The notes beneath the pieces are model-generated. The model was not told where the DNA came from and made no database searches. It saw only the letters and a list, made by a program, of their open reading frames with translations. Positions 1,033 through 25,964 of a stretch of DNA of 25,964 nucleotides are shown one piece after another. This stretch comes from a virus, in IMG/VR virus record IMGVR_UViG_3300020190_000316, positions 1 through 25,964 of that record. One strand, written 5' to 3'. A program made the position numbers and the translations under genes. Positions within the stretch are counted from its first letter, which is position 1. Every line of letters begins with the position of its first letter.

Positions 1033-1188
1033 ATGAGCGAATCAGAAAAAATTTCAGAAACAGACAATATGGGTAGAGAAAAATTTTGGGAAGATATCGG
1101 AAGACCAGAAAACGATGGTTTGGCATTAAAAATATTTAAAGAACAATGTTGTGACAATTGCGGTCAGGTTACTGGCAAGGACCTTTAA
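1033..1188 (+). CDS. Small acidic protein with a CCxxC motif (51 aa)
   Basis: ATG at 1033 follows a near-perfect ribosome binding site aggaggg (1021-1027, five-base spacer). The product starts MSESEKISETDNMGREKFW, is rich in Glu and Asp, and ends with EQCCDNCGQVTGKDL, a Cys-Cys-x-x-Cys cluster that could bind metal. It lies 26 bases behind the Fe-S carrier gene and is probably cotranscribed with it. The last 20 bases overlap the 3' end of the convergent minus-strand gene. A role with the Fe-S carrier is only suggested by position and the cysteines. Confidence 0.65.
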   Translation: MSESEKISETDNMGREKFWEDIGRPENDGLALKIFKEQCCDNCGQVTGKDL

Positions 1189-1855: not shown

Positions 1856-1861
1856 GTAAAG

Positions 1862-1867
1862 ATTATA
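1862..1867 (-). promoter_or_regulatory. Extended -10 promoter, leaderless, for the oxygenase-like gene at 1169-1855
   Basis: On the minus strand TGTTATAAT ends at 1862, six bases before the ATG at 1855. It sits in a 55-base divergent promoter region shared with the plus-strand gene at 1911. Confidence 0.7.
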
Positions 1868-1878
1868 ACACATGATTA

Positions 1879-1910: not shown

Positions 1911-2183
1911 ATGGCACTAGAAAAAATGAGTTCTGTAGAAACTGATTGGTATACAACTCAAGAAGGAACTGCTCAAGCAAAAGACTTTATTTTTAAAGAT
2001 TTTTGTGACTATATTATTGTAATAAAAACATTTGCAGATCCATCTGACAACACACAATTAAAGAAAACTGAAATTGTGCATATCAACTCTAATGATGGGC
2101 GGGTAGTTAATAAATCTTACAATGAATTAGATCCACCATTAAAAGATGCACTGACAAGGGCTAATTTCCCTATTGCAAAGTAA
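1911..2183 (+). CDS. Small hypothetical protein (90 aa)
   Basis: ATG at 1911 follows aggagg with a five-base spacer and has its own TGGTATACT promoter. The product begins MALEKMSSVETDWYTTQEG. The pattern 'DYIIVIKTFADPSDNTQLKK' then 'IVHINSNDGRVV' suggests a small beta-rich fold. I recognise no family. It overlaps the 3' end of the convergent oxygenase-like gene by 14 bases. It is a single-gene transcript lying between two paralogous oxygenase-like genes on the other strand. Confidence 0.75.
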   Translation: MALEKMSSVETDWYTTQEGTAQAKDFIFKDFCDYIIVIKTFADPSDNTQLKKTEIVHINSNDGRVVNKSYNELDPPLKDALTRANFPIAK

Positions 2184-2760
2184 AGTACTTAGCGACATAA
2201 GAACCCACTTGGTTTGACATATTTTCTCTATGAGCACTGTCTAACATAAGTGGGTCTTCTGTATCTTCAACAACTTGAGCAACTATAATATCGTAATAAT
2301 CATCTGGCCCAAACTCTATATCTGGTCTCCAATGTATCTGATGTGATCCAGAAAACAGTACTGCTGTGTTTCTTTTAATATCGTATCCTTGATCTCCTAT
2401 GTAAACAGTCCACGGTAAAGTATGATCAAGTTGAATACTTAATGTAAGAGATGCTTGATGCAATCCTACGTCATAATGAGGGTAAAGCCTAGGCCTACTA
2501 TTAGATTTTAATGTATACCTAGGCATATGATTGCCCCATTCCTTAACTTTGATTGGCACATTGTCTTGAACAATTTGCACAATCTTTTTTCTTATGTTTC
2601 CGCTAAATGGTTTGGTGTTGGTTATATAACCACAACTTTCATCAGTTAAAAGATTTTCACTTTTTGAGCGGGAATCATAAATTTCATTAATTTCTTCTTC
2701 GCTGAACACATTGTAAATAACAATAGGCTCAAAATTAAAAAAGAAAGAACTATTAGTCAC
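2170..2760 (-). CDS. 2OG-Fe(II) oxygenase-like double-stranded beta-helix protein
   Basis: The gene probably starts with GTG at 2760 (MTNSSFFFNFEPIVIY), overlapping the stop of the upstream gene by 8 bases. The 196-aa product has H95 and D97 (RLYPHYDVG), 'SLTLSIQLDHTLPWTVYIG', and H143 in SHQIHWRPD followed by 'DDYYDIIVAQ'. The iron-ligand layout is the same as in the paralogue at 1169-1855. It is the last gene of the minus-strand operon that begins at 4828. As with its paralogue, iron ligands are visible but the 2OG-anchoring basic residue is not certain, so another cupin-type dioxygenase activity is possible. Confidence 0.7.
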   Translation of the reverse strand: MTNSSFFFNFEPIVIYNVFSEEEINEIYDSRSKSENLLTDESCGYITNTKPFSGNIRKKIVQIVQDNVPIKVKEWGNHMPRYTLKSNSRPRLYPHYDVGLHQASLTLSIQLDHTLPWTVYIGDQGYDIKRNTAVLFSGSHQIHWRPDIEFGPDDYYDIIVAQVVEDTEDPLMLDSAHRENMSNQVGSYVAKYFTLQ

Positions 2761-4861: not shown

Positions 4862-5074
4862 ATGACAGCCTCTTCCGAACTTGCAGCCCTTATTTTGACC
4901 ACACTATCCATTGTAGCATTAGTTGCTGGTGGAGTCAAGTGGTTAACAAAACATTACTTTGATGAAATACGTGCAGAGTTGAGACCTAACGGCGGATCAA
5001 GTTTAAAAGATCAAGTGGCGAGGCTTGAGCAAAAAGTTGACATTATCTATGATATTGTAATCAACAAAGACTAG
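4862..5074 (+). CDS. Small single-pass membrane protein (holin-like or tail-associated)
   Basis: The start is placed at ATG 4862 (MTASSELAAL), nine bases after a TGTTATAAT box. An upstream in-frame ATG at 4814 would put the promoter inside the gene. Residues 7-30 form one transmembrane segment (ALILTTLSIVALVAGGVKWL). The cytoplasmic or periplasmic tail has the motif 'ELRPNGGSSLKDQVARLEQ', common in small membrane proteins of actinobacterial phages. It ends in a short coiled coil. Such proteins are often annotated as holins or unknown membrane proteins. A lysis role is possible, but the lysozyme-like gene is 5.6 kb away. Confidence 0.72.
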   Translation: MTASSELAALILTTLSIVALVAGGVKWLTKHYFDEIRAELRPNGGSSLKDQVARLEQKVDIIYDIVINKD

Positions 5075-5697
5075 GCTTTCCAATTTTCATTAGCAAAAAA
5101 CCATTGAGTAGAATATCTGTGCCCAGACCTTACTTCTAAAATTTCATGTATATATTTTGACTCAAATGCAACAAAATCTCCAGCAACTGGTTTATAAATA
5201 TATGGTGATTTTATATCGCTTTCTTCTGGTCTTTCTATCGCAACGTCGTCATCGTGAAATTTTAATTCTCCACCCTCAAAATTATCATTCCAATAAAAAA
5301 TTCCTGATATTGTAATTGGGCTATCGCCACCTACAGTTAATCCTGGATGTGGTTGATATGTGCCTGTAGGGATATCTGGATGAGGTCCAAGACTCATTCC
5401 TGGATCTCTTCTGTCAATTGTTAAAAAAGAAGTATTCATGAGATCTGCGTATTCTGGATTAATTATTTTAACATTTCTTTGACTTAAATTAAAATCTTTT
5501 TCTATTGATGGAATAACTTGTTTATGAACAGAATACATTTTTTTATAAACAGACATAGGCAGCCAATCTCTTAATTGTTTAACAGCCTCATCTGTACAAA
5601 TACTAGGACTCCATAAAGGATCTTCAAAATACCCCATAACATTTAAAACAGATAATCTGTCTTCTTCAGACATTAAATTTTTATAAATTTTGATCAT
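5071..5697 (-). CDS. 2OG-Fe(II) oxygenase, prolyl-4-hydroxylase-like
   Basis: The 208-aa product has every landmark of the P4H-type fold. These are H106 and D108 in LGPHPDIPTG, the strand 'SGIFYWNDNFEGGELKF' (residues 131-147), 'PVAGDFVAFES', the distal H184 in KYIHEI, and R194 ten residues later in SGHRYSTQWF, which would bind the 2OG C5 carboxylate. It couples oxidation of 2-oxoglutarate to hydroxylation of an unknown substrate. It is transcribed alone from a leaderless promoter, pointing away from the tail-fibre region. Its stop overlaps that of the membrane-protein gene by four bases. Family call firm; substrate unknown. Confidence 0.88.
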   Translation of the reverse strand: MIKIYKNLMSEEDRLSVLNVMGYFEDPLWSPSICTDEAVKQLRDWLPMSVYKKMYSVHKQVIPSIEKDFNLSQRNVKIINPEYADLMNTSFLTIDRRDPGMSLGPHPDIPTGTYQPHPGLTVGGDSPITISGIFYWNDNFEGGELKFHDDDVAIERPEESDIKSPYIYKPVAGDFVAFESKYIHEILEVRSGHRYSTQWFFANENWKA

Positions 5698-9880: not shown

Positions 9881-10657
9881 ATGTTAAATTCATTATGGAC
9901 ATTTTTATTAAAAGGTATGGGATCAGTCCCTAACCTACTTGGATTAACAAAAAATCAAGCAAGGAATGCTTTACAAAATGCAGGATTGAATTACGGTACT
10001 GAAATAGAAGAAATTCAAAGCGATGAATCTTTAACTGGATTGGTTAAATCACAAGATGTTCCAGCACATACGTTATTAGATTATGAGACTGCTGTTGACT
10101 ACAAACTTCATTCATTTGCTTTTTCACCATTTGGAGTTTTTGGATTCTCTCCTTTTGGAGTTTTTGGATTTTCTCCTTTTGGAGTTTTTGGATTTTCTCC
10201 GTTTTCAGTTTTTAGTTTTTCACCAGAACCAATAGTATGTCCGCAACCTGGCGCTTGGAGTGAATGGTCTTCTTGGACTATAGGTCCTTGGGGTCCATTT
10301 ATACCCGCAGCACCTGCGTGTGGGGACGATGGTTACAGAAGACAATATAGAACTTATACTAGGACTAGAACAAGAACAATATATAACTTAGTTAATGGAG
10401 TTTGCCAAAGTGGAACTGAAACTGAAACAGATACATTGCAAGATCAAAATGTTGAAGTTTGCGGTATTATAGCATTTAACTTTATGCCAACGTTTGGCGT
10501 ATTTTCATTTACGCCAGCGTTCTCAGTATTTAGTTTCACACCAGCGTTCTCAGTATTTAGTTTCACGCCAGCGTTCTCAGTATTTAGTTTCACGCCAGCG
10601 TTCTCAGTATTTAGTTTCACACCAGAGAGTACATTTAACTTCGCTCCTTGGGGTTAA
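9881..10657 (+). CDS. PASTA + TSP1-like adhesin with Phe-rich repeats
   Basis: The 258-aa product has four parts. Residues 12-77 form a PASTA-like domain (SVPNLLGLTKNQARNALQNA...). Residues 79-115 carry an eight-residue repeat SPFGVFGF. Residues 122-195 resemble a thrombospondin type 1 domain: GAWSEWSSW, a basic ladder YRRQYRTYTRTRTRT, and cysteines at 120, 147, 175 and 194. Residues 205-250 repeat the nine-residue VFSFTPAFS. PASTA domains bind peptidoglycan stem or muropeptides; TSP1 domains bind glycans or proteins in animals. A cell-wall-binding adhesin of the virion is plausible. The start at 9881 has a weak aggtg site; MGSVPNLLG at 9917 is an alternative. Its stop overlaps the convergent lysozyme stop. 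Confidence 0.75.
   Translation: MLNSLWTFLLKGMGSVPNLLGLTKNQARNALQNAGLNYGTEIEEIQSDESLTGLVKSQDVPAHTLLDYETAVDYKLHSFAFSPFGVFGFSPFGVFGFSPFGVFGFSPFSVFSFSPEPIVCPQPGAWSEWSSWTIGPWGPFIPAAPACGDDGYRRQYRTYTRTRTRTIYNLVNGVCQSGTETETDTLQDQNVEVCGIIAFNFMPTFGVFSFTPAFSVFSFTPAFSVFSFTPAFSVFSFTPAFSVFSFTPESTFNFAPWG
10122..10215 (+). repeat. 24-base in-frame tandem repeat (SPFGVFGF)
   Basis: About three near-identical copies of a unit close to tctccttttggagtttttgg plus four bases encode the first Phe-rich repeat of the adhesin. A fourth copy is diverged (SPFSVFSF). Confidence 0.85.
10514..10621 (+). repeat. 27-base in-frame tandem repeat (four copies)
   Basis: Four copies start at 10514, 10541, 10568 and 10595, differing at one position (cac followed by a or g). 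They encode PAFSVFSFT. The near-identity at DNA level suggests recent expansion or gene conversion. Confidence 0.9.
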
Positions 10658-15104: not shown

Positions 15105-17006
15105 ATGGCAACAAGAATGCAACAGCGCAGAGGAACCGCAGCACAGTGGTCTGGCGCAAACCCAATTTTGGCAGCAGGTGAAATCGGTTTTGAAACCGAC
15201 ACAAGTAAATTTAAAATAGGTAACGGATCATCTACATGGTCTGCCCTAAACTATTATGTGGACGCAAATGCGATCCTTGACGGTGCACCAGGTGTACTAG
15301 ATACTCTAAACGAACTTGCAGCAGCCTTGGGTGACGATCCAGAATTTATCACTACTGTTGCAACAAATCTCTCAACTCACGCAGCAGATACCTCAGATGT
15401 GCACGGTATCGCAAATACAGCAAACTTAGCAACACTTAATGATCTATCCGAGGCAATATCTAACGCAGAAGTTGATCAATCAACTCTTGCTGGCGTTGGA
15501 CTTGATTGGAATGCAGGTACAGAACAGTTTGATATTGATGATACTGTTGTTACTCTTACAGGTACACAGTCATTAACCAATAAAACATTAAATGCAGCAG
15601 ATCTTGGTTCAAGTTCAATAGCAACTACTCAAGATGGTGCTGATTCATCAACAAAAATTGCCACGACTGCATTCGTACAACAAAGAGTTTCTGCAGTTGT
15701 TGCAGGAGCACCAGAATTATTAAATACATTAAACGAACTTTCTATTGCAATTGCCAACGATCAAAATTTTTCAGCAACTATAACTGAATTAGTTGGACAA
15801 AAACTTGTTAAGGCTGGCGACACAATGACAGGATTTTTAACCTTGTCAGGTGCTCCAGTAAGTGACTTACACGCTGCCACAAAGTTGTATGTAGATACTA
15901 AGTCTAGTACAGAAGCAACTGGTGCCGTCAGCGCTCACACAATATCATCTACTAACGTACATGGTATCGCTGATGTGGGAGAACTTGCAACAAAGTCTTA
16001 TGCAGACAACGCTGCTACTACAGCAGCAACTGGTGCCATAAGCGATCACACAGTATTATCTACTAACGTACATGGTATCGCTAATGTGGAAGAACTTGCA
16101 ACAAAGGCTTATGCAGATAGTTCATCGACTGCAGCAGCAACATCAGCAACAGAAACCCATAGATTAGATACAACAAACGTACATGGAATTGTTGATACAG
16201 CAAACGTTGTTCTTACAGACGATGCTCGTTTGTCAGATACAAGAACACCAACCGATAATACAGTGTCAACAGACAAGATTGTTAATTCTTCAGTAACTGC
16301 AGTAAAACTTGCTGGAGATTCTGTGACAACTGCAAAGATTGAAGATGGTGCAGTGACCTCTGCTAAGATTGCAGATGGAGCAATTGTAAATGCTGATATT
16401 AATGATTCAGCAGCAATTGCATGGACTAAACTTGCTTCTTCTTCAACTATTTCTGAAACAGAACTTGGATATCTTGATGGGGTATCATCTAACATTCAGA
16501 CTCAGTTTACTGGAGTAACTGCTGCAATTGCAACAGCAAAGGCTGAGGCTATCGCAGATGCGACATCACAAGTAAATGCAATTCTTGCAAGTGCTCCAGC
16601 AGCACTCGACACACTTGATGAACTTGCTGCAGCCCTTGGAGATGATGCAAACTTTGCATCTTCTGTAACAACAAGCCTTGAACTAAAGGTTGATTCAATA
16701 ACCCCAATTGTTCAAAAGACAGCATCATACACAATGTCATCACTAACTGAAAGAGATGATTTAATTGAAATGAACTCTTCCTCAGCACTTACGCTGACAA
16801 TTCCAACAAATGCATCAGTTGCCTTCCCAGTTGGAACATCTTTTGATGTTCTTCAAACTGGCTCAGGACAAGTAACAATTGCTGGAGCATCAGGAGTTAC
16901 TGTTAACGCAACACCAGGTCTAAAGTTAAGAACTCAATATTCTTCTGCAACTTGTTTCAAGAGAGCAGAAAATCTATGGGTTGTTTACGGCGACTTGACA
17001 GCGTAG
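15105..17006 (+). CDS. Large tail fibre protein (633 aa)
   Basis: The N-terminus MATRMQQRRGTAAQWSGANP with 'LAAGEIGFETDTSKFKIGNGSSTW' is the well-known anchor module of phage fibres and Mtd/hyaluronidase-type proteins. The body has repeated units: 'LNTLNELAxAxxDDxxF' occurs three times. 'STNVHGIAxVxELATKxYAD' occurs twice in near-identical form (about residues 284-345). There is also 'TVSTDKIVNSSVTAVKLAGDSVTTAKIEDG'. The last 100 residues are the tip domain also found at 9241, ending WVVYGDLTA. This is probably the main receptor-binding fibre or a long tail fibre half. Confidence 0.88.
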   Translation: MATRMQQRRGTAAQWSGANPILAAGEIGFETDTSKFKIGNGSSTWSALNYYVDANAILDGAPGVLDTLNELAAALGDDPEFITTVATNLSTHAADTSDVHGIANTANLATLNDLSEAISNAEVDQSTLAGVGLDWNAGTEQFDIDDTVVTLTGTQSLTNKTLNAADLGSSSIATTQDGADSSTKIATTAFVQQRVSAVVAGAPELLNTLNELSIAIANDQNFSATITELVGQKLVKAGDTMTGFLTLSGAPVSDLHAATKLYVDTKSSTEATGAVSAHTISSTNVHGIADVGELATKSYADNAATTAATGAISDHTVLSTNVHGIANVEELATKAYADSSSTAAATSATETHRLDTTNVHGIVDTANVVLTDDARLSDTRTPTDNTVSTDKIVNSSVTAVKLAGDSVTTAKIEDGAVTSAKIADGAIVNADINDSAAIAWTKLASSSTISETELGYLDGVSSNIQTQFTGVTAAIATAKAEAIADATSQVNAILASAPAALDTLDELAAALGDDANFASSVTTSLELKVDSITPIVQKTASYTMSSLTERDDLIEMNSSSALTLTIPTNASVAFPVGTSFDVLQTGSGQVTIAGASGVTVNATPGLKLRTQYSSATCFKRAENLWVVYGDLTA

Positions 17007-17035: not shown

Positions 17036-17980
17036 ATGGCAAAGAAACGAGTAGGTAGAAAGTCTCAGGCATCAAATGACTTTTTGGAGCCATTAACGCC
17101 GACGATTACTAGCGCTACAAACGTAGGATCAGGTCGTGCATTTAATGATGGAGCAGTAACTGTTGCATTTTCTTTACCTGCGTTATCTCCAAATGCAACA
17201 TCTTTTACAGTAACAGCAAGCACTGGTCAGACAGCATCTGGAGCATCATCTCCAATTACTGTAACTGGAATTGCTTCAGCAGCAACGCCCACATTTACAG
17301 TAACAGCAACTAACGCAGCAGGAACCTCTGCTGCTTCTGCTGCATCTTCTGCAGTGACAGTATCAACTGTTCCTGGTGTTCCAACAAGCGTTTCTGCATC
17401 TGCATTATCAGCAAACACAAATAGAATATCCTGGACACCAGGCTCTAATGGTGGTTCCGCACTAAGTTCATATACAATTACTGGTTCTGATGGATCTAAT
17501 TACACAGGTATTTCTGGTTCTGCTTCAAGTTATGATGCCGATGACCCAGGACAAAATCCAGGATCACAGACATATACAATTGTTGCTATAAATGCTAATG
17601 GTTCTTCTACTAGCGCTACAACTAACAACGTTAATACCACTCCGCCATTTTTCCCATTCTTTCCACCGTTCTTTCCATTCTTTCCGTTTTTCCCATTCTT
17701 CCCCCCATTTTTCCCATTCTTCCCATTCTTCCCATTCTTTCCACCATTCTTCCCGTTCTTCCCATTCTTCCCGTTCTTCCCACCATTCTTCCCATTCTTC
17801 CCATTCTTCCCGTTCTTCCCACCATTCTTCCCATTCTTCCCATTCTTCCCGTTCTTCCCACCTTCTTTCGGTCCGTCCTTCCCATTCTTCCCACCTAGTT
17901 TCCCACCAGCAGGAGGATGCTACTGTGGATATTGCTGGAGATGTGGTACATGTTGTCCAGGAAGATCATGTCACTGTTAA
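17036..17980 (+). CDS. Fn3-type protein with Phe/Pro repeat and Cys-rich tail
   Basis: The 314-aa product has four parts. There is a basic N-terminus (MAKKRVGRKS). Two fibronectin type III-like domains follow (about residues 22-112 and 113-204; the second shows 'VPTSVSASALSANTNRISWTPGSNGGSALSSYTITG', a textbook Fn3 pattern). A Phe/Pro-only tract covers residues 203-290, built on a 13-residue unit PPFFPFFPFFPFF. The end is GGCYCGYCWRCGTCC...SCHC with eight cysteines in the last 20 residues. Fn3 domains on virions are thought to bind cell-surface carbohydrate. The Phe/Pro and Cys-rich parts match nothing I recognise; they could form a hydrophobic or disulfide-linked fibre core or a metal site. 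An aggaga site precedes ATG 17036. Confidence 0.75.
   Translation: MAKKRVGRKSQASNDFLEPLTPTITSATNVGSGRAFNDGAVTVAFSLPALSPNATSFTVTASTGQTASGASSPITVTGIASAATPTFTVTATNAAGTSAASAASSAVTVSTVPGVPTSVSASALSANTNRISWTPGSNGGSALSSYTITGSDGSNYTGISGSASSYDADDPGQNPGSQTYTIVAINANGSSTSATTNNVNTTPPFFPFFPPFFPFFPFFPFFPPFFPFFPFFPFFPPFFPFFPFFPFFPPFFPFFPFFPFFPPFFPFFPFFPFFPPSFGPSFPFFPPSFPPAGGCYCGYCWRCGTCCPGRSCHC
17645..17900 (+). repeat. 39-base in-frame repeat encoding PPFFPFFPFFPFF
   Basis: Pro-Pro pairs recur exactly every 13 residues (210, 223, 236, 249, 262 and 275). At DNA level this is a 39-base unit of ccattcttc-type nonamers with few differences, all preserving the frame. Confidence 0.88.
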
Positions 17981-17984: not shown

Positions 17985-18014
17985 AGTGAGGGTGTATGAA
18001 AATATGCCCTCATT
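17985..18014 (+). terminator. Hairpin after the Fn3/Phe-Pro gene, terminator-like
   Basis: AGTGAGGGTGTAT and ATATGCCCTCATT form a 13-bp stem including G-U pairs, closed by a GAAA tetraloop, five bases after the TAA. The T-run is missing on the plus strand, so termination would be weak. It could also stabilise the 3' end of the long fibre messages. The next promoter follows 13 bases later. Confidence 0.4.
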
Positions 18015-18024
18015 AAACAACATA

Positions 18025-18033
18025 TGCTATAAT
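18025..18033 (+). promoter_or_regulatory. Extended -10 promoter for the gene at 18060
   Basis: TGCTATAAT (18025-18033) is followed by a short leader with aaaggag (18047-18053) and ATG 18060. Confidence 0.65.
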
Positions 18034-18059
18034 AATAAAAGTACTAAAGGAGATTATTT

Positions 18060-18497
18060 ATGTATGCAGTAGTAGTTGGAGGTAATGGAATATATGATGT
18101 TATTTCATTATTCAATCACATAAGAGAAGACGTCGTAAATAATTTAGATACGGCATACGCAACTGGTTTGCCTATTACATCAATAGATGCAAGTGCACAC
18201 AAGCAATCAGCATTATATGGAGCAACCTTTGATGGTTCTGCATTTTCTGGTGGAGTCAGTGGTCCAAACTTACTAAAGGCAACACAAGAAGAATTAGATT
18301 CTTTTAATTTATATGCATTTTTATCTGATAGTGTTGTTGTTGCAAGAATTGCGGTGCCTGTAGATAGTCCAAAAGCAGAAATGTTCAGTGCAGCAAATGC
18401 TACAGGAATGTCTTTAATTAAAGTTCCTGAAGATCAGGCTGTTTATGTAGGACAATCATACAACTGGGATGGTACTTCTTTTAGTTCAGTAGAATAA
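18060..18497 (+). CDS. Hypothetical protein (145 aa), structural-type
   Basis: The ATG has the ribosome binding site aaaggag. The product begins MYAVVVGGNGIYDVISLFNH and contains 'GATFDGSAFSGGVSGPNLLKATQEELDSF', 'YAFLSDSVVVARIAVPVDSPKAEMFSAAN' and a final 'YVGQSYNWDGTSF'. The 'vG..WDG..F' ending is common in phage tail-fibre accessory proteins, where it resembles 'vGw.ydGt.F'. It heads the operon carrying the oxygenases (18522-24719). No enzymatic motif is seen. It could be a target or scaffold of the following oxygenases, but this is only positional. Confidence 0.6.
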   Translation: MYAVVVGGNGIYDVISLFNHIREDVVNNLDTAYATGLPITSIDASAHKQSALYGATFDGSAFSGGVSGPNLLKATQEELDSFNLYAFLSDSVVVARIAVPVDSPKAEMFSAANATGMSLIKVPEDQAVYVGQSYNWDGTSFSSVE

Positions 18498-18521
18498 TTT
18501 TAACTTTGAAAGGTTAGTCAT

Positions 18522-19265
18522 ATGGAAGTTTATGATGAAAACCAGAATCCCTGGTTTACAAAAGATCGCTCAGAAACTGCATCAAACAGATATCCTACAA
18601 AAACTTTACCAAACGGTATTGTTGTAGAAAATCCAGGACTTGGACTAAATATTTATAGAAACGTGTTTAATAAGGACGATGCCGACAGATATATTCAAAT
18701 ACTTGAATCAAATTTAAATGGAAATTTATTTAAGCAGGATGGCACCCAAAGATATAGATGGTCTGAGGCACAAGTAACAAACTCAACAACTCCAATCAAA
18801 AGAGCAAGAGATGCTGTAGATTTTAAATATAAACAAGAAAATCTTGGACCACGAGATGCATCTAATGCTGAACTTATTGATTTGCATGAAGAGATTTATC
18901 AAAAATTAAAATTTTGCATAGATGATTATGCACGTTATTGGGGAATTAATGTTGTCTATTATGAAGCCTTTAATTTTGTAAAATATGAAGGTGAAGGCAA
19001 ACACTTTAATATACACGCAGATCACGGTCCTGCTTACAATGCAACTGTATCTGCTGTTATATACATCAATGATGATTATGAGGGCGGAGAAATACAATTT
19101 CCAAGACTAGACGGCTACACTCTTATTCCAAAAGTTGGAGATATTGCCGTTTTCCCATCTAACTACATTTATGAGCATGCATCTCTTCCAATGAAGAGCG
19201 GTACAAAGTATTGTGTCGTAATCATGACTGATATTAATGAGTTAGGTCATAAAGATGGGCGATGA
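18522..19265 (+). CDS. 2OG-Fe(II) oxygenase, prolyl-hydroxylase-like (lysine-anchor type) 1
   Basis: The 247-aa product has H165 and D167 (FNIHADHGP), the strand 'VSAVIYINDDYEGGEIQF' (residues 176-193), 'PKVGDIAVFPSNYIYEHASLP' with distal H219, and K229 ten residues on in SGTKYCVV. Lysine stands where most relatives have arginine to bind 2OG, as in some known prolyl and lysyl hydroxylases. It is a close paralogue of the gene at 20043. The N-terminal 160 residues are unique to this pair and may determine substrate. Its end overlaps the next gene by 11 bases. Confidence 0.88.
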   Translation: MEVYDENQNPWFTKDRSETASNRYPTKTLPNGIVVENPGLGLNIYRNVFNKDDADRYIQILESNLNGNLFKQDGTQRYRWSEAQVTNSTTPIKRARDAVDFKYKQENLGPRDASNAELIDLHEEIYQKLKFCIDDYARYWGINVVYYEAFNFVKYEGEGKHFNIHADHGPAYNATVSAVIYINDDYEGGEIQFPRLDGYTLIPKVGDIAVFPSNYIYEHASLPMKSGTKYCVVIMTDINELGHKDGR

Positions 19266-20031
19266 GTACAATAAATTATTTTTTAAAACATATCGACCAT
19301 GGTTAACAAAAGATAGTAAATCCGCTCCAACTCCTACGCAAAAAGAAATACCAGATTGGTATAAAGATGCAGATAGATTTGCAAAAATGTCAAATGGAGA
19401 ATATTACAGAGCACCAAAAGAGGTTTGTCCATTTCCAAAACCTGGAACCACCGATGATTACGGAATGATTCCAACATGGAAAGCATGTCCAGCAATTTTA
19501 GATGCTTTTATAACAGGCTATGTTTTTAAAACTCCATGTGATCTTGTGTTTACTAAAAACAGTCACAATTCGTTAGATCTTAAAATAGATAACGTAATGT
19601 ATAAAGATTTTTGTGTATCTAGGCCACCAATGCCTCAGTTTAAACATCCTCAAGGATATTATAAAGATCATTTTGCCTGGATGCCAGACTGGGGAGTGAG
19701 ACTGCCCGAAGGATATAGTGCATTATTTATGACACCAATGAATAGGTTCGATCTACCCTTTATGAATACTACTGGCGTGGTTGACTCAGACAAGGTTGAA
19801 TTGCTTGGCAGTTTTCCATTTTTTATTATTGATGGGTGGGAAGGAACTATCCCAGCGGGAACGCCATATTTACAAATTCTTCCATTTAAAAGAGAAAATT
19901 GGGAGCATGAACTTGATATTTTAGATTCATCAACAGTATATGCTAAAATAGTAGATAACGCAAATATTTATCGTCAGCCAGATGGCGGGGTATATAAAGA
20001 TAAAGTTTGGACAAGAAGAGAATATAAGTAA
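19255..20031 (+). CDS. DUF6065-like protein embedded in the oxygenase operon, copy 1
   Basis: The 258-aa product has no HxD...H site and is not an oxygenase. The order resembles the family DUF6065 pattern seen more clearly in the neighbour at 20726. First is 'ILDAFITGYVFKTPCDLVFTKN' (a GW/GY-I-..-P-x-D-ahx-F segment). Then 'YSALFMTPMNRFDLPFMNTTGVVDSDK', 'SFPFFIIDGWEGTIPAGTPYLQILPFKRENW'. It lies 11 bases inside the preceding oxygenase gene. The biochemical role of DUF6065 proteins is not known to me; they occur near oxygenases and glycan genes. It may be the substrate-binding or partner protein. Confidence 0.6.
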   Translation: MGDEYNKLFFKTYRPWLTKDSKSAPTPTQKEIPDWYKDADRFAKMSNGEYYRAPKEVCPFPKPGTTDDYGMIPTWKACPAILDAFITGYVFKTPCDLVFTKNSHNSLDLKIDNVMYKDFCVSRPPMPQFKHPQGYYKDHFAWMPDWGVRLPEGYSALFMTPMNRFDLPFMNTTGVVDSDKVELLGSFPFFIIDGWEGTIPAGTPYLQILPFKRENWEHELDILDSSTVYAKIVDNANIYRQPDGGVYKDKVWTRREYK

Positions 20032-20042
20032 AAGGAGATACT

Positions 20043-20726
20043 ATGTCAACTTGGACAGAAAAAGAAAACCTTGGAAATGGAATAACTTGTTATAGAGGTG
20101 TCATTAAAAAAGAATTTGATGTAATTAACAGACTAGAGAGTACTCTTGGTTCTGTTGCTGGATATGGAGAGTTATCTTCAGAGGGTAAAAGGTACCACTG
20201 GATGCCAGCATATGTTGGATATCAGCAGTTGATGCCAGACTATAGGGACTGTGTTGATTTTAAATTTAAAAAGACCGACATTGAGCCAGACAAAAGCGAG
20301 GACTCCCTAAAACTACAGGCACTGTGGCAAGACGTTTATGATGCTCAGGCAGTTGCTGTTGAAGATTATAGAAGAGATTATAACATTATGCCTTTGAAAT
20401 ATTGGGAGGCATTTAATTTTATAAAGTATGGTTCAGGTCAGCACTTTAAAGAACACCATGATCATGGATACTCCTATAATTGCACAGTTTCATTGGTTGC
20501 CTATGTTAATGATGATTATGATGGCGGAGAGTTATTTTTTAGATTGCAAAATTTAAATATTAAGCCAAAGGCTGGCGATCTATATGTTTTCCCATCAAAC
20601 TATATGTATCCACATCAAGCAATGCCAGTGCATTCTGGAACTAAGTATTCTATTGTTACAATGCTTGATTATAGCAAAAAGTATCATACCCCAGACATGT
20701 ATGATCCAAAATGGGAAAAGGAATAA
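20043..20726 (+). CDS. 2OG-Fe(II) oxygenase, prolyl-hydroxylase-like (lysine-anchor type) 2
   Basis: The ATG follows aaaggaga. The 227-aa product has H138 and D140 (KEHHDHGYS), 'TVSLVAYVNDDYDGGELFF' (residues 148-166), 'PKAGDLYVFPSNYMYPHQAMP' with distal H191, and K201 in SGTKYSIVT. The sequence is close to the gene at 18522 along its whole length, including 'YEAFNF' and 'CVDFKFK', so the two arose by duplication with a DUF6065-like gene between them. The TAA overlaps the next ATG. Confidence 0.88.
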   Translation: MSTWTEKENLGNGITCYRGVIKKEFDVINRLESTLGSVAGYGELSSEGKRYHWMPAYVGYQQLMPDYRDCVDFKFKKTDIEPDKSEDSLKLQALWQDVYDAQAVAVEDYRRDYNIMPLKYWEAFNFIKYGSGQHFKEHHDHGYSYNCTVSLVAYVNDDYDGGELFFRLQNLNIKPKAGDLYVFPSNYMYPHQAMPVHSGTKYSIVTMLDYSKKYHTPDMYDPKWEKE

Positions 20727-21433
20727 TGTTTAATATATCTGTAGAAAAAATGCAGGGCGGTATTTTTAAAATTGAGCCAATGTCTATTAAAAGAGATTGG
20801 ATGGATTTAACATCAGAGAAACATGCATATAGATGTTTTCCAGTAACTCAAGCCAACGTAGTTGGTTGGAATATTTCTTGTATTGAAGATATAGTTTTTA
20901 CCTGGGATGGAGTTAATGATCAAACAGATCAACATGTTAAGATTACTGGTCCAGAAGGCTCGTATTCTGGCAGAGGTCAGTCATCTATAAGTTTAAACAC
21001 TGGATTAGTTTTTAGAACAGATCCAGATATAAGCATTTTAACTATTAATCCAGTTAATTATTTTAATGATGATTTTGAAACAATGTCTAATTTAATAAGC
21101 ACATCTTTTTATGATAATCCATTACCTTTAGCACTTAAGGCAAAAAAAGCAAATCAAGAAACTATTATAAAGGCTAAAACACCAATTGCAACAATTATTC
21201 CTATTTCTTTAACTAGCCTTAATAATACAACTATTGAGATTGTAGCCTACAGTGACCCAGATCGAAAGAGAGAACGAGCCAACATAAACTATGGTAATGC
21301 AGCACAAGTTATAAATTCATCTGGTGAGTGGACAGATTGGTATCGTGAGGGAATAGATGAAAAAGGTAACTTGATAGGATCTCATGAAGTTAAAACATTA
21401 AAGTTAGATGTAGTAGATAGGTCAAATTTATAA
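20726..21433 (+). CDS. DUF6065-like protein embedded in the oxygenase operon, copy 2
   Basis: The start at 20726 is chosen because its ATG overlaps the previous stop (TAATG) and aaaagga lies upstream; an ATG at 20711 is inside the preceding gene. The 235-aa product shows the DUF6065 order: 'RCFPVTQANVVGWNISCIEDIVFTWDG', then 'SISLNTGLVFRTDPDISILTINPVNYFNDDFETM', 'PLALKAKKANQETIIKAKTPIATIIPISL'. It ends with an acidic/basic region. The TAA overlaps the next ATG. Function of the family unknown to me. The repeat of oxygenase + DUF6065-like suggests a functional pair. Confidence 0.65.
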   Translation: MFNISVEKMQGGIFKIEPMSIKRDWMDLTSEKHAYRCFPVTQANVVGWNISCIEDIVFTWDGVNDQTDQHVKITGPEGSYSGRGQSSISLNTGLVFRTDPDISILTINPVNYFNDDFETMSNLISTSFYDNPLPLALKAKKANQETIIKAKTPIATIIPISLTSLNNTTIEIVAYSDPDRKRERANINYGNAAQVINSSGEWTDWYREGIDEKGNLIGSHEVKTLKLDVVDRSNL

Positions 21434-21897
21434 TGAGCGATCATTTAAAATCAAACCATACAGACATAGTAAATGAATATATTGCTAATGCAAAAGCACA
21501 AAAGGTAAATCATTATATTGTTACTGTATCTAGAGACGGAGAATTTCCTGTGCGATCTATTATTTCTTATGATAATGTTGTTGATGCAGTATCAGGATAT
21601 GAAATGTATCAGGATGCTGGATTTGCAAAATCTTATCTTACCGTATCTTTGTATGAGCCATCAGGAAAGGTAAATACAAAAGTATTAAAAAGAAATCAGG
21701 CTGGTGATCCATCTTTTGTAAGGCAAAATTATATAGATGTTACCAATGCATTGTTACAAATTAAAAACAAATTATCTGAAAAAGATTTTGAGACTTTGTG
21801 CACCAACATAGGTACATCTTTTGGCAAGGATAATTGGAGATTTAATATTGAACGGTTTTTTGATAATTTAGGGATAGGATCAACCATACAGGGATAA
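21433..21897 (+). CDS. Hypothetical protein (154 aa)
   Basis: ATG overlaps the preceding stop (TAATGAG). The product begins MSDHLKSNHTDIVNEYIANA and has 'HYIVTVSRDGEFPVRSIISYDNVVDAVSGYEMYQDAGFAKSYLTVSLYEPSGKV', an alternating beta/alpha plan also seen in proteins that follow oxygenase genes in other large phages, though I cannot name the family. The C-terminal half is helical. It ends 24 bases before the next start. Role unknown; cotranscription with the oxygenases is clear. Confidence 0.7.
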   Translation: MSDHLKSNHTDIVNEYIANAKAQKVNHYIVTVSRDGEFPVRSIISYDNVVDAVSGYEMYQDAGFAKSYLTVSLYEPSGKVNTKVLKRNQAGDPSFVRQNYIDVTNALLQIKNKLSEKDFETLCTNIGTSFGKDNWRFNIERFFDNLGIGSTIQG

Positions 21898-21906
21898 TGT
21901 ATCCTA

Positions 21907-21915
21907 TGGTATAAT
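21907..21915 (+). promoter_or_regulatory. Extended -10 promoter, leaderless, for the oxygenase at 21922
   Basis: TGGTATAAT (21907-21915) ends six bases before ATG 21922 with no ribosome binding site. It gives the last four oxygenases a separate transcription start. Confidence 0.7.
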
Positions 21916-21921
21916 TTAAAT

Positions 21922-22677
21922 ATGAATCCACAAGAAGCCATAACCGTAGTAAGAAAACCGTCACTTACCCCTTCAGGATTTTTTGGAAGTGGCTCAGAAA
22001 ATATAGTTGAATTAGAAAATTTTATGACATTAGAAGAAGTTGATTTTTTAGATAAGGCAGCAAGAAATATAACTATATGGGATGTTACCGAAAGCCATAA
22101 AAATGAAAACGGTACTGTAATTTATGATGCAGAATATTGGAAGGATAGGGTTGCAAGCGCACCGTCTCTTAACCAAAATGATCCATATATTGTTCCAGTT
22201 ATAGTTCGTTTATTTAATAGACTGCAGCCAGTAATTGAAAAATTTTTTAGTGTAAAAGTTAAATCAACAGGACAGAGTATAGTAAAGTGGAACCCAGGAC
22301 AATTCCAAATGCCTCATGCAGACAAAGAATTACACTCAGGTCCAGATGCTGGAACGTCTAATGATTTTCCAAATTATGATATATCAAGTTTATTTTATAT
22401 CAATGATGATTATGAAGGTGGAGAGTTATACTTTCCAAATCAAGGTATACAGTTTAAACCAAAGCGTGGCTCTGCATATTTTTTCCCAGGAGACATGAAC
22501 TATGTTCACGGAGTTACTAAAATTAAAAGTGGACTACGATATACTTGTCCATTTTTTTGGGAAATTTTAGAACATACTGGAGAAGTTAAACCAGACTTTA
22601 GTACAAAATATCATAGAATTTTTCCTGACGATAAGTCAATAAGTGCTTGGGATCCAGACAATGGGATTAGGAGTTAG
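21922..22677 (+). CDS. 2OG-Fe(II) oxygenase, prolyl-hydroxylase-like 3
   Basis: The 251-aa product has H132 and D134 (QMPHADKEL), 'SSLFYINDDYEGGELYF' (residues 155-171), 'PKRGSAYFFPGDMNYVHGV' with distal H196, and R206 ten residues later in SGLRYTCPFFW. All catalytic positions are intact. A 45-residue C-terminal extension rich in Asp and Lys follows the core and is not shared with the other copies. It has its own leaderless promoter and stands three bases before the next gene. Confidence 0.9.
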   Translation: MNPQEAITVVRKPSLTPSGFFGSGSENIVELENFMTLEEVDFLDKAARNITIWDVTESHKNENGTVIYDAEYWKDRVASAPSLNQNDPYIVPVIVRLFNRLQPVIEKFFSVKVKSTGQSIVKWNPGQFQMPHADKELHSGPDAGTSNDFPNYDISSLFYINDDYEGGELYFPNQGIQFKPKRGSAYFFPGDMNYVHGVTKIKSGLRYTCPFFWEILEHTGEVKPDFSTKYHRIFPDDKSISAWDPDNGIRS

Positions 22678-22680
22678 CAA

Positions 22681-23424
22681 ATGAACCTAGAAAATAAAAA
22701 TAGATTAACAAAAGATATAGTTGTTTATGAAAATTTTATTAATGCTGATACTGCTGCAAAACTTGTAAAAGTTTTAGATAAACACGCAGAACTTGGGTTG
22801 ATTACCTGGATGCCTATATCTTTCTATGAGTCTTATTCTTCAGTCCTGCCACAAGACAATGATGAGCATGTAGAAAATGAAGGATTGCCAAGCGATATAT
22901 TTTCACAAATAAAGCAAGGAATCATTAATGCTGTTGCAAGCGTTCATGACCTTGATCCTAAGATAATTTCTCAAATTGGGTATCATACTCAGAAATGGGA
23001 GCCAGGTGCCTATGCAAGGATTCACTCAGACAACACAGACGAGCATGGAAATTCTGGCGCATTTACTAGAAGCAGATATGCTGCTTTCTTATATTTAAAT
23101 GATAATTTTGAAGGAGGACTATTACAATTTCCAGAACAAGAATTAAGTATTAAACCAAAGGTCGGTATGCTTGCTGCATTTGATGGGGGATTTAATAATA
23201 TGCACGAAGTAACACTAATAGAAAGTGGAGTTAGATATACCATTGGTTCGTTCTGGGATGATAGAGAAGAAGATGCATACTCACAAGAGTTAAGAGACGC
23301 ATGGGCATTAGAAATGAAAGAAACAAGAGCAAAGCAAGAAGTAGAAAGAGCACAATGGCAAGAGTTATTGAAAAAGGGATATAAAATAGATCAAGAAGGT
23401 AAACAATATAGGGTGGAACAATAA
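22681..23424 (+). CDS. 2OG-Fe(II) oxygenase, prolyl-hydroxylase-like 4
   Basis: The 247-aa product has H115 and D117 (ARIHSDNTDEHG), 'YAAFLYLNDNFEGGLLQF' (residues 133-150), distal H175 in NNMHEVT and R185 in SGVRYTIGSFW. After the core comes a charged helical tail of about 50 residues (EMKETRAKQEVERAQWQELL) likely to be a coiled coil, possibly for docking to a partner or to the virion. The ATG has aggag upstream. It ends one base before the next start. Confidence 0.9.
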   Translation: MNLENKNRLTKDIVVYENFINADTAAKLVKVLDKHAELGLITWMPISFYESYSSVLPQDNDEHVENEGLPSDIFSQIKQGIINAVASVHDLDPKIISQIGYHTQKWEPGAYARIHSDNTDEHGNSGAFTRSRYAAFLYLNDNFEGGLLQFPEQELSIKPKVGMLAAFDGGFNNMHEVTLIESGVRYTIGSFWDDREEDAYSQELRDAWALEMKETRAKQEVERAQWQELLKKGYKIDQEGKQYRVEQ

Positions 23425-23425
23425 T

Positions 23426-24082
23426 ATGCTATTTCTAGAACAAGAGTTTAAAGATAATGGATTTGAAGCAGAATCAACTTTTGAAGAAGTTCTTCTTGTT
23501 CGTAATTTTGCATCTAAAGATGAATTAAGTATGATACTTGATATTATTGAAAAAACACCCAACGATATTTGGTTTGAAGCATACAGAGCAAGTCTTGCTA
23601 GATTTTGTTTAGAAAAATTTGGTAGAGATGATGTAGAAAATTTAGTTGCAGAAGGCAAATATGAAATTACTAAAGATTGGGATGATAAAAATCTTGATAT
23701 TAGTCATAGCCCAGCATCTCGTCAATTGCAAGATAAAATGCATAAATTAATTGCAATAAATCATCCAGACTTAGAGTTAACTGGTTTTGCAACATTGCAA
23801 AGAATGCAAGAAGGCGTACAGTTAAAATCTCATACAGATCAACATACTGATCCGTCTATTAGATATGCTGCTATACTATACCTCAATGATGACTATACAG
23901 ACGGCACTCTATTTTTTAAAAATAAAGATATAGATTTACGTCCAAAGCCAGGAGAACTTCTTGTATTTCCAGGAAACGAAGAATACGAGCATGGAGTAAG
24001 GCATGTTGGTCCAGGACCAATAAGATACGTTCTTGTCGGTTTCATAAAAGTTAAAGGCTTTTATGAAAATAATAAATACTAA
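23426..24082 (+). CDS. 2OG-Fe(II) oxygenase, prolyl-hydroxylase-like 5
   Basis: The 218-aa product has H136 and D138 (LKSHTDQHTDPS), 'YAAILYLNDDYTDGTLFF' (residues 147-164), 'PKPGELLVFPGNEEYEHGV' with distal H189, and R200 in GPIRYVLVGF. The H-to-R spacing is 11 rather than 10, because GPGP replaces the usual SG turn. The N-terminal half is acidic and helical. It starts two bases after the preceding stop, with ggtggaaca as a weak ribosome binding site, so translational coupling is likely. Confidence 0.88.
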   Translation: MLFLEQEFKDNGFEAESTFEEVLLVRNFASKDELSMILDIIEKTPNDIWFEAYRASLARFCLEKFGRDDVENLVAEGKYEITKDWDDKNLDISHSPASRQLQDKMHKLIAINHPDLELTGFATLQRMQEGVQLKSHTDQHTDPSIRYAAILYLNDDYTDGTLFFKNKDIDLRPKPGELLVFPGNEEYEHGVRHVGPGPIRYVLVGFIKVKGFYENNKY

Positions 24083-24092
24083 AGGAGTAATT

Positions 24093-24719
24093 ATGAAGAA
24101 AGAAATATTAGAAGAAAAAGTTTACTATTACACAGATGTAATTGCAGATCCATATAAACTGGTTGATGCAATAGAAAAAGATAACCAGGATCCTTGGGGT
24201 GAATGGATGGCATGTAGTGGAAAGCATTATGTTTATGGTACAGATAAAAATATCTCCAACTCCGAAGGTGTTGATGAAAAAAATGATTACATATATAAGA
24301 CATTGCAAAAAGCATTTGATGATGTAGCAAGAGATTATGCAAAATCACAGGGTATAACAGAAGAGCCAAAGTTATTCCCAGTGTATCCAATTAAAAAGTA
24401 TAGTGCGGGTACATTTATGGGAGCACATTTTGATCAACAGGAGGGCGATGGAAGACTTAAAGTTTCTTTTGTTATGTATCTTAATGATGACTACGAAGGC
24501 GGAGAAATATCATTTACCCTAAGAGATCCAAATGGTCCAATTCAAGGTGGGGCTCCAGAATCTGATTTCTCAAAGGCTTTGCCTTCAACATTTAATTTTT
24601 ATGTAAAGCCAAAAGCAGGAAGCATAATTGTGTTTCCTCCATCACCACCGTATCATCATACAGCGCACTTAGTTAAAAGTGGCTATAAGTATATGATTCC
24701 ACAACATTGGATTCACTAA
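24093..24719 (+). CDS. 2OG-Fe(II) oxygenase, prolyl-hydroxylase-like (lysine-anchor type) 6
   Basis: The start is at 24093 (MKKEILEEKVYYYTD) because aaaggag (24081-24087) is five bases upstream; an ATG at 24063 lies inside the preceding gene. The 208-aa product has H112 and D114 (MGAHFDQQEG), 'VSFVMYLNDDYEGGEISF' (residues 124-141), 'PKAGSIIVFPPSPPYHHTAH' with H189 as distal ligand, and K199 in SGYKYMIP. A 25-residue insertion rich in Gly and Pro (about residues 143-168) separates the two core halves. It is the last oxygenase of the cluster. Confidence 0.88.
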   Translation: MKKEILEEKVYYYTDVIADPYKLVDAIEKDNQDPWGEWMACSGKHYVYGTDKNISNSEGVDEKNDYIYKTLQKAFDDVARDYAKSQGITEEPKLFPVYPIKKYSAGTFMGAHFDQQEGDGRLKVSFVMYLNDDYEGGEISFTLRDPNGPIQGGAPESDFSKALPSTFNFYVKPKAGSIIVFPPSPPYHHTAHLVKSGYKYMIPQHWIH

Positions 24720-24809: not shown

Positions 24810-25964
24810 ATGTCTGATTTTTTTAGTTTTCGTTTGTCTGAAGAGTTCATAAATGAGTATAAAACAAAAGAACCCCCATTCGGATTTACAGATGCAGGTG
24901 GTAATTCATTAGGAGAGATTACATTTATTCGTACCTACTCCCGTATGAAGGAAGACGGAACTAAAGAAAGATGGCATGAGGTTTGTCGTAGAGTAATCGA
25001 GGGTATGTATTCGGCTCAAAAGAATCATGCTAAAGAAAACAGGCTACCTTGGAATGATTATAAAGCACAGGCTTCTGCAAAAGAGGCATATCAGCGTTTA
25101 TTTGAGTTAAAGTGGACACCACCAGGACGAGGCCTATGGTCCTTTGGCACGGCACTTACAATGGAAAAGAAAAATTCAGCAGCATTACAAAATTGCGCTA
25201 TGGTATCTACAAAAGACATAGATAGAAACGATCCAGGCACATTATTTGGTTGGATTATGGATGCCCTTATGATGGGGGTAGGCGTAGGGTTTGATACTGT
25301 CGGGGCAGAAAAACATTTGCCCATTTATGACCCTACAGAACCACCACAGACGTATGAAATCCCAGATACTCGTGAAGGCTGGGTAGAGTCTGTTAGATTG
25401 CTCATTAATTCATTTTTAAAGCCTAACATGTATATCCAGGAGTTTAACTATGACCTTATTAGGCCTTTAGGTGCCCCTATTAAAGGTTTTGGAGGCACTG
25501 CAAGCGGTCCTGCACCACTCATACAACTTCACAAGCAGATAAAGGCTGTAATCGGCGGTAGAGCAGGAGAAGTCTTTGACTCTCGTGCAATAGTAGATGT
25601 AGTTAATCTTATTGGTACCTGTGTGGTATCAGGAAATGTTAGACGATCCGCAACCCTGGCTTTAGGCAGTGCTCAGGATGAAGATTTTATGAATCTTAAA
25701 AACGCTGAGATTTTTCCAGAAAGAAATTCGTTTGATTCCGAAAAACCAGGTTGGGCCTGGATGTCTAATAACTCTGTTTCTGCGACGGTAGGTACAAAGT
25801 ACGAAGACTATATAGATCTAATCGCCAATAACGGAGAACCTGGTTTTATATGGTTAGATGTGGCAAGGGATTACGGGCGTTTGAAAGAACCTGCTGACGG
25901 TAAAGATTATCGTGTCATGGGGTTTAACCCTTGTGCCGAACAGCCCTTGGAGTCATACGAACTA
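24810..25964 (+). CDS. Class II ribonucleoside-triphosphate reductase (B12-dependent), 3'-truncated by the window
   Basis: The frame is open from ATG 24810 (ribosome binding site aggag) to the window end: 385 codons with no stop. Motifs of the monomeric adenosylcobalamin-dependent reductase are in order. They are 'WTPPGRGLWSFGT' (residues 102-114), the first redox cysteine in NCAMVST (C129), 'RPLGAPIKGFGGTASGPAPL', 'CVVSGNVRRSATLALG', and 'NPCAEQPLESYEL' (C375, thiyl radical site, with E377). The enzyme converts NTPs to dNTPs for phage DNA synthesis and needs host or environmental cobalamin. The second redox cysteine would lie a few residues past the end. The inverted repeat upstream may regulate it. 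Confidence 0.93.
   Translation, partial: MSDFFSFRLSEEFINEYKTKEPPFGFTDAGGNSLGEITFIRTYSRMKEDGTKERWHEVCRRVIEGMYSAQKNHAKENRLPWNDYKAQASAKEAYQRLFELKWTPPGRGLWSFGTALTMEKKNSAALQNCAMVSTKDIDRNDPGTLFGWIMDALMMGVGVGFDTVGAEKHLPIYDPTEPPQTYEIPDTREGWVESVRLLINSFLKPNMYIQEFNYDLIRPLGAPIKGFGGTASGPAPLIQLHKQIKAVIGGRAGEVFDSRAIVDVVNLIGTCVVSGNVRRSATLALGSAQDEDFMNLKNAEIFPERNSFDSEKPGWAWMSNNSVSATVGTKYEDYIDLIANNGEPGFIWLDVARDYGRLKEPADGKDYRVMGFNPCAEQPLESYEL

Follow-up and report, generated by a model that had tools for sequence, protein, structure and literature searches.

Giant viruses provide the closest described systems: they encode 2OG hydroxylases such as L230 and the vCPH of PBCV-1, and the mimivirus lysyl hydroxylase L230 modifies the mimivirus collagen L71 (PMC9546862). 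Many 2OG-Fe(II) oxygenases are also present in aquatic phages, where their role has been debated since the first cyanophage genomes, with nitrogen metabolism, DNA repair and secondary metabolites as the options considered. T4-like Kyanoviridae cyanophages hold many PF13640-type genes per phage (24 copies in S-SCSM1), some of them flanking tail-fibre genes, and the published proposals for their oxygenases involve host metabolism or DNA repair. Consumption of 2-oxoglutarate was put forward for cyanophages (Sullivan, 2010; PMC3037559) and again for S-SCSM1, DNA repair has been proposed as well (PMC3037559), and the production or decoration of a small molecule or host surface polysaccharide has been proposed for a cyanophage cluster of halogenase, carbamoyltransferase and 2OG oxygenase genes (Iyer et al., 2021; PMC7824862).

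Here we describe a freshwater phage family in which a row of prolyl-hydroxylase-like genes stands beside the gene of a putative Phe-Phe-Pro fibre, while relatives with another repeat have another enzyme family in that position; this suggests that phages modify their own repeat proteins. The locus resembles those of giant viruses in coding for 2OG hydroxylases, and both L230 and vCPH are among the structure or profile matches of one of its enzymes, O2. However, its proposed target is an aromatic-Pro repeat and not collagen, there are six or more enzymes per target, and substrate and enzymes would share one operon, as a swappable cassette in a tailed bacteriophage. The Kyanoviridae likewise have many such genes, but they are a different lineage, their best matches to the array are only ~25-42% identical, and the FFP repeat was not found in the fibre genes that were read. 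A literature search did not find a published description of the repeat-oxygenase pairing.

The DNA analyzed, hereafter the window, comprises the 25,964 nt at positions 1 to 25,964 of the IMG/VR record IMGVR_UViG_3300020190_000316. Genes are named by their start position, with the suffix "-" for the minus strand, and O1 to O6 are the six oxygenases of the plus-strand array. A search of INPHARED for near DNA matches to the window gave none; portal and DnaE have their relatives in the Stanwilliamsviridae, with which the window phage shares a distant kinship. The hosts may be freshwater Actinobacteria. As a sign of a T4-like, cyanophage-type affiliation, the gp23 capsid family (Pfam PF07068) was sought in 12 related records and not found, in a search that had no positive control. 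The array occupies positions 18522-24719 of the plus strand, just 3' of 17036, and its six oxygenases lie in one operon whose genes are spaced by -20 to +90 bp. In a promoter scan, matches were no more frequent than in shuffled sequences, and a terminator scan yielded 11 matches versus 7.3 expected. The features of the window are as follows, with the source of each assignment in brackets.

1169..1873, minus strand: possible iron enzyme with invariant HxD...H and an Arg at H+2, matching none of the curated oxygenase families (family alignment)
2170..2760, minus strand: same putative family as 1169- (family alignment)
5071..5697, minus strand: lone PF13640 oxygenase on a long branch, outside the operon (Pfam; tree)
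9881..10657, plus strand: PASTA-domain protein with FSPFGVFG/FSVFSFTPA repeats, a second aromatic-Pro repeat protein, with no adjacent oxygenase (Pfam; sequence)
15105..17006, plus strand: tail-fibre gene with an Mtd_N domain, just 5' of the cassette (Pfam)
17036..17980, plus strand: scaffold/fibre-type protein of 314 aa with an fn3-like N-terminal part, an (FF/YF)P(P) repeat and a Cys-rich C-terminus; proposed substrate (Pfam fn3; neighbourhood)
17648..17893, plus strand: FFP repeat region, with 23 FFP units and 31 prolines (sequence)
18060..18497, plus strand: small protein; many cassettes have one, others do not (cassette comparison)
18522..19265, plus strand: O1, PF13640 oxygenase with Lys as 2OG anchor (Pfam; own tree clade)
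19255..20031, plus strand: DUF6065-like protein, phrog_7084 (profile match)
20043..20726, plus strand: O2, PF13640 oxygenase whose predicted structure resembles prolyl hydroxylases (Pfam, alignment, model)
20711..21433, plus strand: DUF6065 protein, PF19541 (Pfam)
21433..21897, plus strand: protein found in about half of the cassettes (cassette comparison)
21922..22677, plus strand: O3, PF13640 oxygenase; top solved relative prolyl 3-hydroxylase 1 (Pfam, alignment, profile)
22681..23424, plus strand: O4, PF13640 oxygenase; top solved relative prolyl 3-hydroxylase 1, 2.8e-11 (Pfam, alignment, profile)
23426..24082, plus strand: O5, PF13640 oxygenase; top solved relative prolyl 3-hydroxylase 1, 9e-4 (Pfam, alignment, profile)
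24063..24719, plus strand: O6, PF13640 oxygenase, start at 24063 or at the in-frame ATG 24093; no solved relative in the sequence search (Pfam, alignment)
24810..25964, plus strand: ribonucleotide reductase, cut by the window's end; a marker of the fixed site in the genome (neighbourhood)

Two neighbours of the array were considered and set aside. The ribonucleotide reductase gene, which in Stanwilliamsviridae is also near the portal gene, was rejected as a functional partner and is taken as an ancestral neighbour, because Bmoc has it beside structural genes with no array. DUF6065, for which a profile search of the PDB gave no matches, was discarded as a marker of the FFP system, being present also in haloviruses without oxygenases and in FSPFGVFG cassettes.

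Seven ORFs (5071-, 18522, 20043, 21922, 22681, 23426 and 24063) scored above the curated cut-off for PF13640 (2OG-FeII_Oxy_3), and in each of them HxD, the distal H and R/K are present, confirming the full HxD...H plus Arg/Lys set that the initial annotation had read in seven genes. The triad and R/K are invariant or nearly so in the orthologue alignments of O2-O6, while the motif residues of O1 and 5071- were read in the window sequence; the array enzymes are thus present with intact active-site residues. The same annotation had credited 1169- and 2170- with the iron ligands, and this was borne out: neither had a Pfam family match and 1169- only a weak one to phrog_2954, and H, D and the distal H are invariant in 41 members of the family. 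Their conserved Arg is at H+2 and not at ~H+10, so a description as iron ligands only fits. The earlier view that the oxygenases are diverse, and not simply a recent amplification, agrees with a tree of 172 proteins in which the array genes form old, separate orthologue clades, each common to many phages. A single close relative of O2 was found in cellular genomes, on a short MAG contig that is possibly phage.

Of the array members, O2 was modelled. Its AlphaFold2 model (pLDDT 95.1) has a double-stranded beta-helix fold according to Foldseek matches and resembles PPHD, PHD2, algal P4H and the vCPH of PBCV-1, so that O2 is, by prediction, of prolyl-hydroxylase fold. Prolyl hydroxylases account for 48 of the 50 best structure matches, a count that is biased because most of the solved structures related to PF13640 are those of protein hydroxylases. 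P4H or P3H1 was also the best profile match for O2, O3, O4 and O5, and for an extra array member that is absent from the window; the profile of O6 found no solved relative by sequence. The array therefore shares with P4H, HIF-PHD, Pseudomonas PPHD and P3H1 the fold (predicted for O2), HxD...H plus K/R and profile similarity, although identity in the structural alignments is <=~20%. In the structure search O2 came closest to the Pseudomonas prolyl hydroxylase in complex with EF-Tu, which raises the alternative that the array hydroxylates host proteins, e.g. EF-Tu as the Pseudomonas enzyme does, in favour of infection. We regard this as improbable, since for a host target there would be no need to keep six or more enzymes behind a single repeat gene, or to exchange the enzyme family when the repeat type changes.

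Activity on nucleic acids, whether in repair or in base modification of the AlkB or TET kind, would be in line with the DNA repair proposal for cyanophage oxygenases and with Tet_JBP matches of O3 and O5 that were weak and below threshold (O5 matched a Tet-like structure at E 0.044). It appears very improbable: significant AlkB or TET matches were found for none of the array members, the structure and profile matches are protein hydroxylases, the genes linked to the array encode repeat proteins, and no DNA-modification genes were seen inside the cassettes that were read.

Across 160 distinct FFP regions, F directly preceded Pro in 3038 cases and Y in none, one position earlier there was F or Y, and the repeat was kept at the protein level with varying codons. 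Gene 17036 probably encodes a fibre or adhesin of the virion, with a C-terminal rod of (F/Y)F-P and (F/Y)F-PP units. FFP loci were gathered from IMG/VR by a DNA pattern scan blind to oxygenases, and the array proved to be strictly linked to the FFP gene: of 79 FFP loci, 72 had an oxygenase <=2.5 kb away on the downstream side, versus 2 of 53 collagen-repeat loci (Fisher p ~3e-26, uncorrected for shared ancestry). In the reverse test, with arrays taken from O2 and O3 scans with >=3 kb upstream, an FFP gene was upstream in 64/64 (62 intact, 2 frameshifted). L154 and L155 were rejected as arrays lacking an FFP gene, since the repeat is present with a frameshift (read in L154). The strict DNA pattern missed variants in the portal-anchored G083 and G085, which were recovered by reading, and for some FFP proteins in partial records PF13640 is absent from the record.

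Overall, we consider it likely that O1-O6 hydroxylate the FFP-repeat protein 17036, most likely on proline. The region 17036-24719 would be one cassette made of a substrate plus its dedicated modifying enzymes, which would hydroxylate the rod during infection, most likely at more than one kind of site (a lone P, the first or the second P of PP, C3 or C4). We infer that 17036 is the substrate, proline the residue and the virion the location of 17036; hydroxylation may help such a strongly hydrophobic rod through its solubility, stiffness or adhesion, or may provide a handle for further modification. If true, a phage fibre would be hydroxylated by several enzymes dedicated to it, and the Phe-Pro rod would be a new repetitive polymer for which maturation enzymes exist. 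The locus thus combines a specific substrate candidate with an operon compact enough to be expressed and with a natural control in which the same scaffold carries another repeat and is accompanied by another enzyme family.

At the same site and with the same fn3 scaffold, a change of repeat type goes along with a change of enzyme family. The FFP repeat was accompanied by the PF13640 array in 47/48 loci, and an FSPFGVFG-type repeat by a different 2OG-oxygenase family, HDH, in 35/37; there were no crossed pairings among these 48 and 37 loci. On a ribonucleotide-reductase tree the switches with support number at least 5, and the best tree has 14; the enzyme type changes every time. In the HDH family a near-invariant H-D-H replaces the plain HxD. 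No significant Pfam match was found for it, though some members match phrog_81 (2OG-Fe(II) oxygenase) and the structures nearest to an HDH model are 3bvc and 2rg4, uncharacterised and of 2OG type. The proline-free repeat FSHYAGFSHY is still paired with an HDH enzyme, so that in some systems the target may be a residue other than proline. These observations would fit, with roughly even chances in our estimation, a modular fibre-maturation code in which a scaffold at a fixed site carries one of several aromatic-Pro rods, each accompanied by 2OG hydroxylases matched to it (the P3H/P4H-like array for FFP/FFPP, HDH for FSPFGVFG), exchanged between phages as a unit. Such a code, if true, would be for bacteriophages what collagen maturation is for animals, but with a non-collagen polymer. 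That the enzymes mainly consume 2-oxoglutarate and so shift host nitrogen signalling or metabolism, as Sullivan (2010) and later the S-SCSM1 work proposed, seems to us the least probable reading of all, given that it predicts neither a tie to repeat type nor conserved, separate orthologue groups.

The association did not extend to fibre genes in general. In eight other fibre-type families of these phages an adjacent oxygenase was found in 0/36, 0/31, 0/32, 0/21, 0/85, 0/97, 2/149 and 2/49 cases, i.e. 4 in 500 genes when pooled. Collagen was rejected as the target, since none of the 36 homologues of the collagen-like gene 6475 adjoins an oxygenase and 2/53 collagen-pattern loci have one <=2.5 kb downstream. 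Of the initial proposal, then, the part by which the phage would modify repetitive proteins of its own gains support from linkage and repeat-type switching, while collagen as a target and one enzyme per fibre are not supported, the latter because these eight families have no regular adjacent oxygenase and six enzymes, from different orthologue groups, share one FFP protein.

Co-switching can also reflect linkage, because one recombination event can swap cassette neighbours. Neighbours at a hot spot might then be co-exchanged only by proximity, and the enzymes might serve to produce or modify a small molecule or the host surface polysaccharide, as proposed in the cyanophage precedent (PMC7824862). 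P450, radical SAM, SDR or methyltransferase genes occur in some cassettes, and the relative G019 has a Trp halogenase, a carbamoyltransferase and an epimerase, but ~10 to 55 kb from its array. We consider this explanation unlikely, if less so than the other alternatives: the core cassettes show no glycosyltransferase or other pathway genes, and it leaves unexplained why enzyme family tracks repeat type. It also does not account for a second site, that of the 9199-type fibres: an oxygenase was present just downstream in 4/5 Pro-repeat versions versus 1/17 repeat-free ones, and when this site was pooled with a third the figures were 6/10 versus 1/41.

In the 25,964-base virus record from IMG/VR, seven ORFs matched PF13640 above the curated cut-off in a profile search, which confirms the oxygenase cluster proposed in the initial annotation. 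Six of them (O1-O6) belong to a single compact operon, its intergenic distances ranging from -20 to +90 bp. Gene 17036 is the first gene of this operon, which also holds two DUF6065-type proteins and two small unknown proteins. The genes are:

17036..17980, + strand, FFP-repeat protein
O1, start 18522, + strand, PF13640 oxygenase
O2, start 20043, + strand, PF13640 oxygenase
O3, start 21922, + strand, PF13640 oxygenase
O4, start 22681, + strand, PF13640 oxygenase
O5, start 23426, + strand, PF13640 oxygenase
O6, start 24063, + strand, PF13640 oxygenase

Alignments of O2-O6 with their orthologues showed that the iron triad and a distal Lys/Arg are kept. Nine oxygenase-fold genes had been claimed; besides the seven with PF13640 these include the minus-strand genes 1169- and 2170-, one family in which HxD...H is invariant in 41/41 sequences, with Arg at H+2, and for which the Pfam search matched no family; they may be iron oxygenases. 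The PHROG labels matching window oxygenases (ferrochelatase, DNA endonuclease, DNA endonuclease V) look like annotation transfer errors. The window also encodes an iron-sulphur cluster biosynthesis protein (677-1006, PF01521) and a small DUF6171-like CxxC protein (2945-3169), which in relatives turns up again immediately 5' of O1 or in the interval separating Pro-repeat genes from oxygenases.

The product of gene 17036 (314 aa) consists of an fn3-like N-terminal part, a repeat region or rod with 23 FFP units and 31 prolines, and a Cys-rich tail. Since it comes after tail-fibre gene 15105, which carries an Mtd_N domain, we infer that it is a virion fibre. Across 160 distinct repeat regions of related contigs, F, Y and P account for all but 403 of the 11,774 residues; the position before proline is occupied by F 3038 times and by Y never, Y being confined to the first aromatic position. 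The proline codons vary (CCA, CCG, CCT), and the repeat is therefore maintained at the protein rather than the DNA level. Three FFP-repeat proteins (L197:2140-3861, L224:3566-6481 and L174:3-785, in related loci) end, by sequence, in a Hint-like (intein-type) domain, suggesting that some may self-cleave; L197 and L224 each have one divergent oxygenase downstream, within 133 bp and 6 bp, respectively.

IMG/VR was scanned with O2 and O3, yielding hundreds of relatives with the recurring order fibre, FFP gene, O1, DUF6065, O2, DUF6065, O3, O4, O5, O6 and ribonucleotide reductase; many cassettes carry additional oxygenases. Where 3 kb or more of sequence was available upstream of an array from these scans, it contained an FFP gene in 64/64 cases, 62 of them intact and two frameshifted (L154 and L155, closely similar loci; the frameshift was read in L154). 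In the reverse direction, a DNA pattern for FFPFFPPFFP, blind to oxygenases, located loci with an oxygenase within 2.5 kb downstream in 72/79 cases with enough downstream sequence, versus 2/53 for a collagen-repeat control pattern (at record level, PF13640 matches occur in 8/50 collagen records, with five in one record). FFP records were re-checked when their loci showed at most one adjacent oxygenase; nine of these 18 had at least six PF13640 genes elsewhere. The proposed co-occurrence of oxygenases with a putative fibre gene was borne out for the array and the FFP gene.

A comparison of 21 records anchored on the portal protein, chosen as a neutral gene, showed that FFP pattern and PF13640 arrays are both variable. 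Reading the sites next to the reductase directly, one fn3 scaffold bears different rods: FFP rods have a PF13640 array behind them; behind FSPFGVFG rods there is no array, its place being taken by two or three 213-225 aa proteins of another family, HDH. This family shows a near-invariant H-D-H...H...R with 2OG-oxygenase spacing, some members match phrog_81 (2OG-Fe(II) oxygenase), and its AlphaFold2 model (pLDDT 92.0, pTM 0.89) matches 3bvc and 2rg4 (both uncharacterised) ahead of prolyl hydroxylases and further 2OG oxygenases; residue spacing, phrog_81 matches and predicted fold all identify HDH as a probable oxygenase. Further scans widened the set to 85 distinct scaffold-reductase sites, where FFP rods had a PF13640 array in 47/48 and FSPFGVFG-type rods had HDH in 35/37, with no crossed pairings. 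On the reductase tree, supported branches carry at least five switches of rod type (the best tree has 14), each accompanied by a switch of enzyme family; a sign test on the five supported pairs gave p = 0.06, the floor for five pairs. The counts are non-independent observations, and neighbouring genes may travel together in one event. The swap shows an unbroken rod/enzyme pairing, from which enzyme action on the rod does not follow. At the same site, G078 has an FGAFGA rod with neither array nor HDH; in G075 the scaffold is of PASTA type and carries a FSHYAGFSHY rod, accompanied by one HDH and two DUF6065 genes.

G019, a 120-kb relative, has a PF04860-type portal (~47% identity) and a DnaE polymerase (~55%) whose nearest isolates are Streptomyces phages (Stanwilliamsviridae). 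In one Streptomyces phage, Bmoc, the reductase also lies near the portal and the array is absent from the stretch read; the reductase is therefore an old neighbour that marks a fixed site. G019 also carries Trp halogenase, carbamoyltransferase and KatG-like peroxidase genes (L409:10027-11577, L409:6639-8060 and L409:1058-3142). From sequence alone, it probably also encodes a glutathione peroxidase, along with sulfotransferase-like proteins.

The predicted O2 model (pLDDT 95.1, pTM 0.91) matches the EF-Tu-bound Pseudomonas prolyl hydroxylase, HIF prolyl hydroxylases, an algal P4H with (Ser-Pro)5 and Chlorella-virus vCPH. Prolyl 3-hydroxylase 1 was the best profile match of O3, O4 and O5 (O4: 2.8e-11), and P4H was that of O2 and an extra array member; the search for solved relatives of O6 gave no match. 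Array members form old, separate clades, so it is plausible that they act on different positions or carry out different reactions on the rod. The initial reading of fibre hydroxylation is partly supported and can be sharpened to a matched cassette, in which one aromatic-Pro repeat protein would come with its own hydroxylase set. We regard action of the array on the FFP-repeat protein as reasonably probable, and are less confident that proline is the modified residue in every system. Cyanophages have many published 2OG oxygenases, with proposed roles in nitrogen signalling, DNA repair, host metabolism and secondary metabolism (PMC3037559, PMC9602691, PMC7824862); Phold likened phage members to EGLN3 (PMC12774648), one study considered the purpose of a prolyl 4-hydroxylase carried by a virus cryptic and pointed to collagen fibres (PMC9301287), and mimivirus modifies its own collagen (PMC9546862). 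Our literature search found no description of the FFP rod or of repeat-enzyme pairing.

Homologues of 9199 represent a second fibre site, where an oxygenase lies within 1.8 kb downstream in 4/5 cases with proline-dense repeats and 1/17 without; pooled with a third (PASTA) site the figures are 6/10 versus 1/41, the classes at both sites having been set during exploration. Genes from eight further fibre-type families in these phages had an oxygenase within 700 bp in 4/500 cases, and homologues of the collagen-like gene 6475 in 0/36. Two PASTA-type proteins whose repeats are (VTPP)n or (VTPA)n (L582:3233, 490 aa; L672:12312, 415 aa) have an oxygenase within ~600 bp behind them, possibly another repeat-enzyme pair.

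Some cassettes hold, by motif, a cytochrome P450 (L154:4763-5893), a radical SAM protein (L085:3005-4006), a short-chain dehydrogenase (L085:10013-10681) or an FkbM-like methyltransferase (L085:11237-11818), which could provide further modification steps. Nearly every FFP cassette has two DUF6065 genes (19255-20031 and 20711-21433 in the window); in the phage records that were searched, their relatives are almost solely in haloviruses, and in the two cases read DUF6065 adjoins ribonucleotide reductase or thymidylate synthase.
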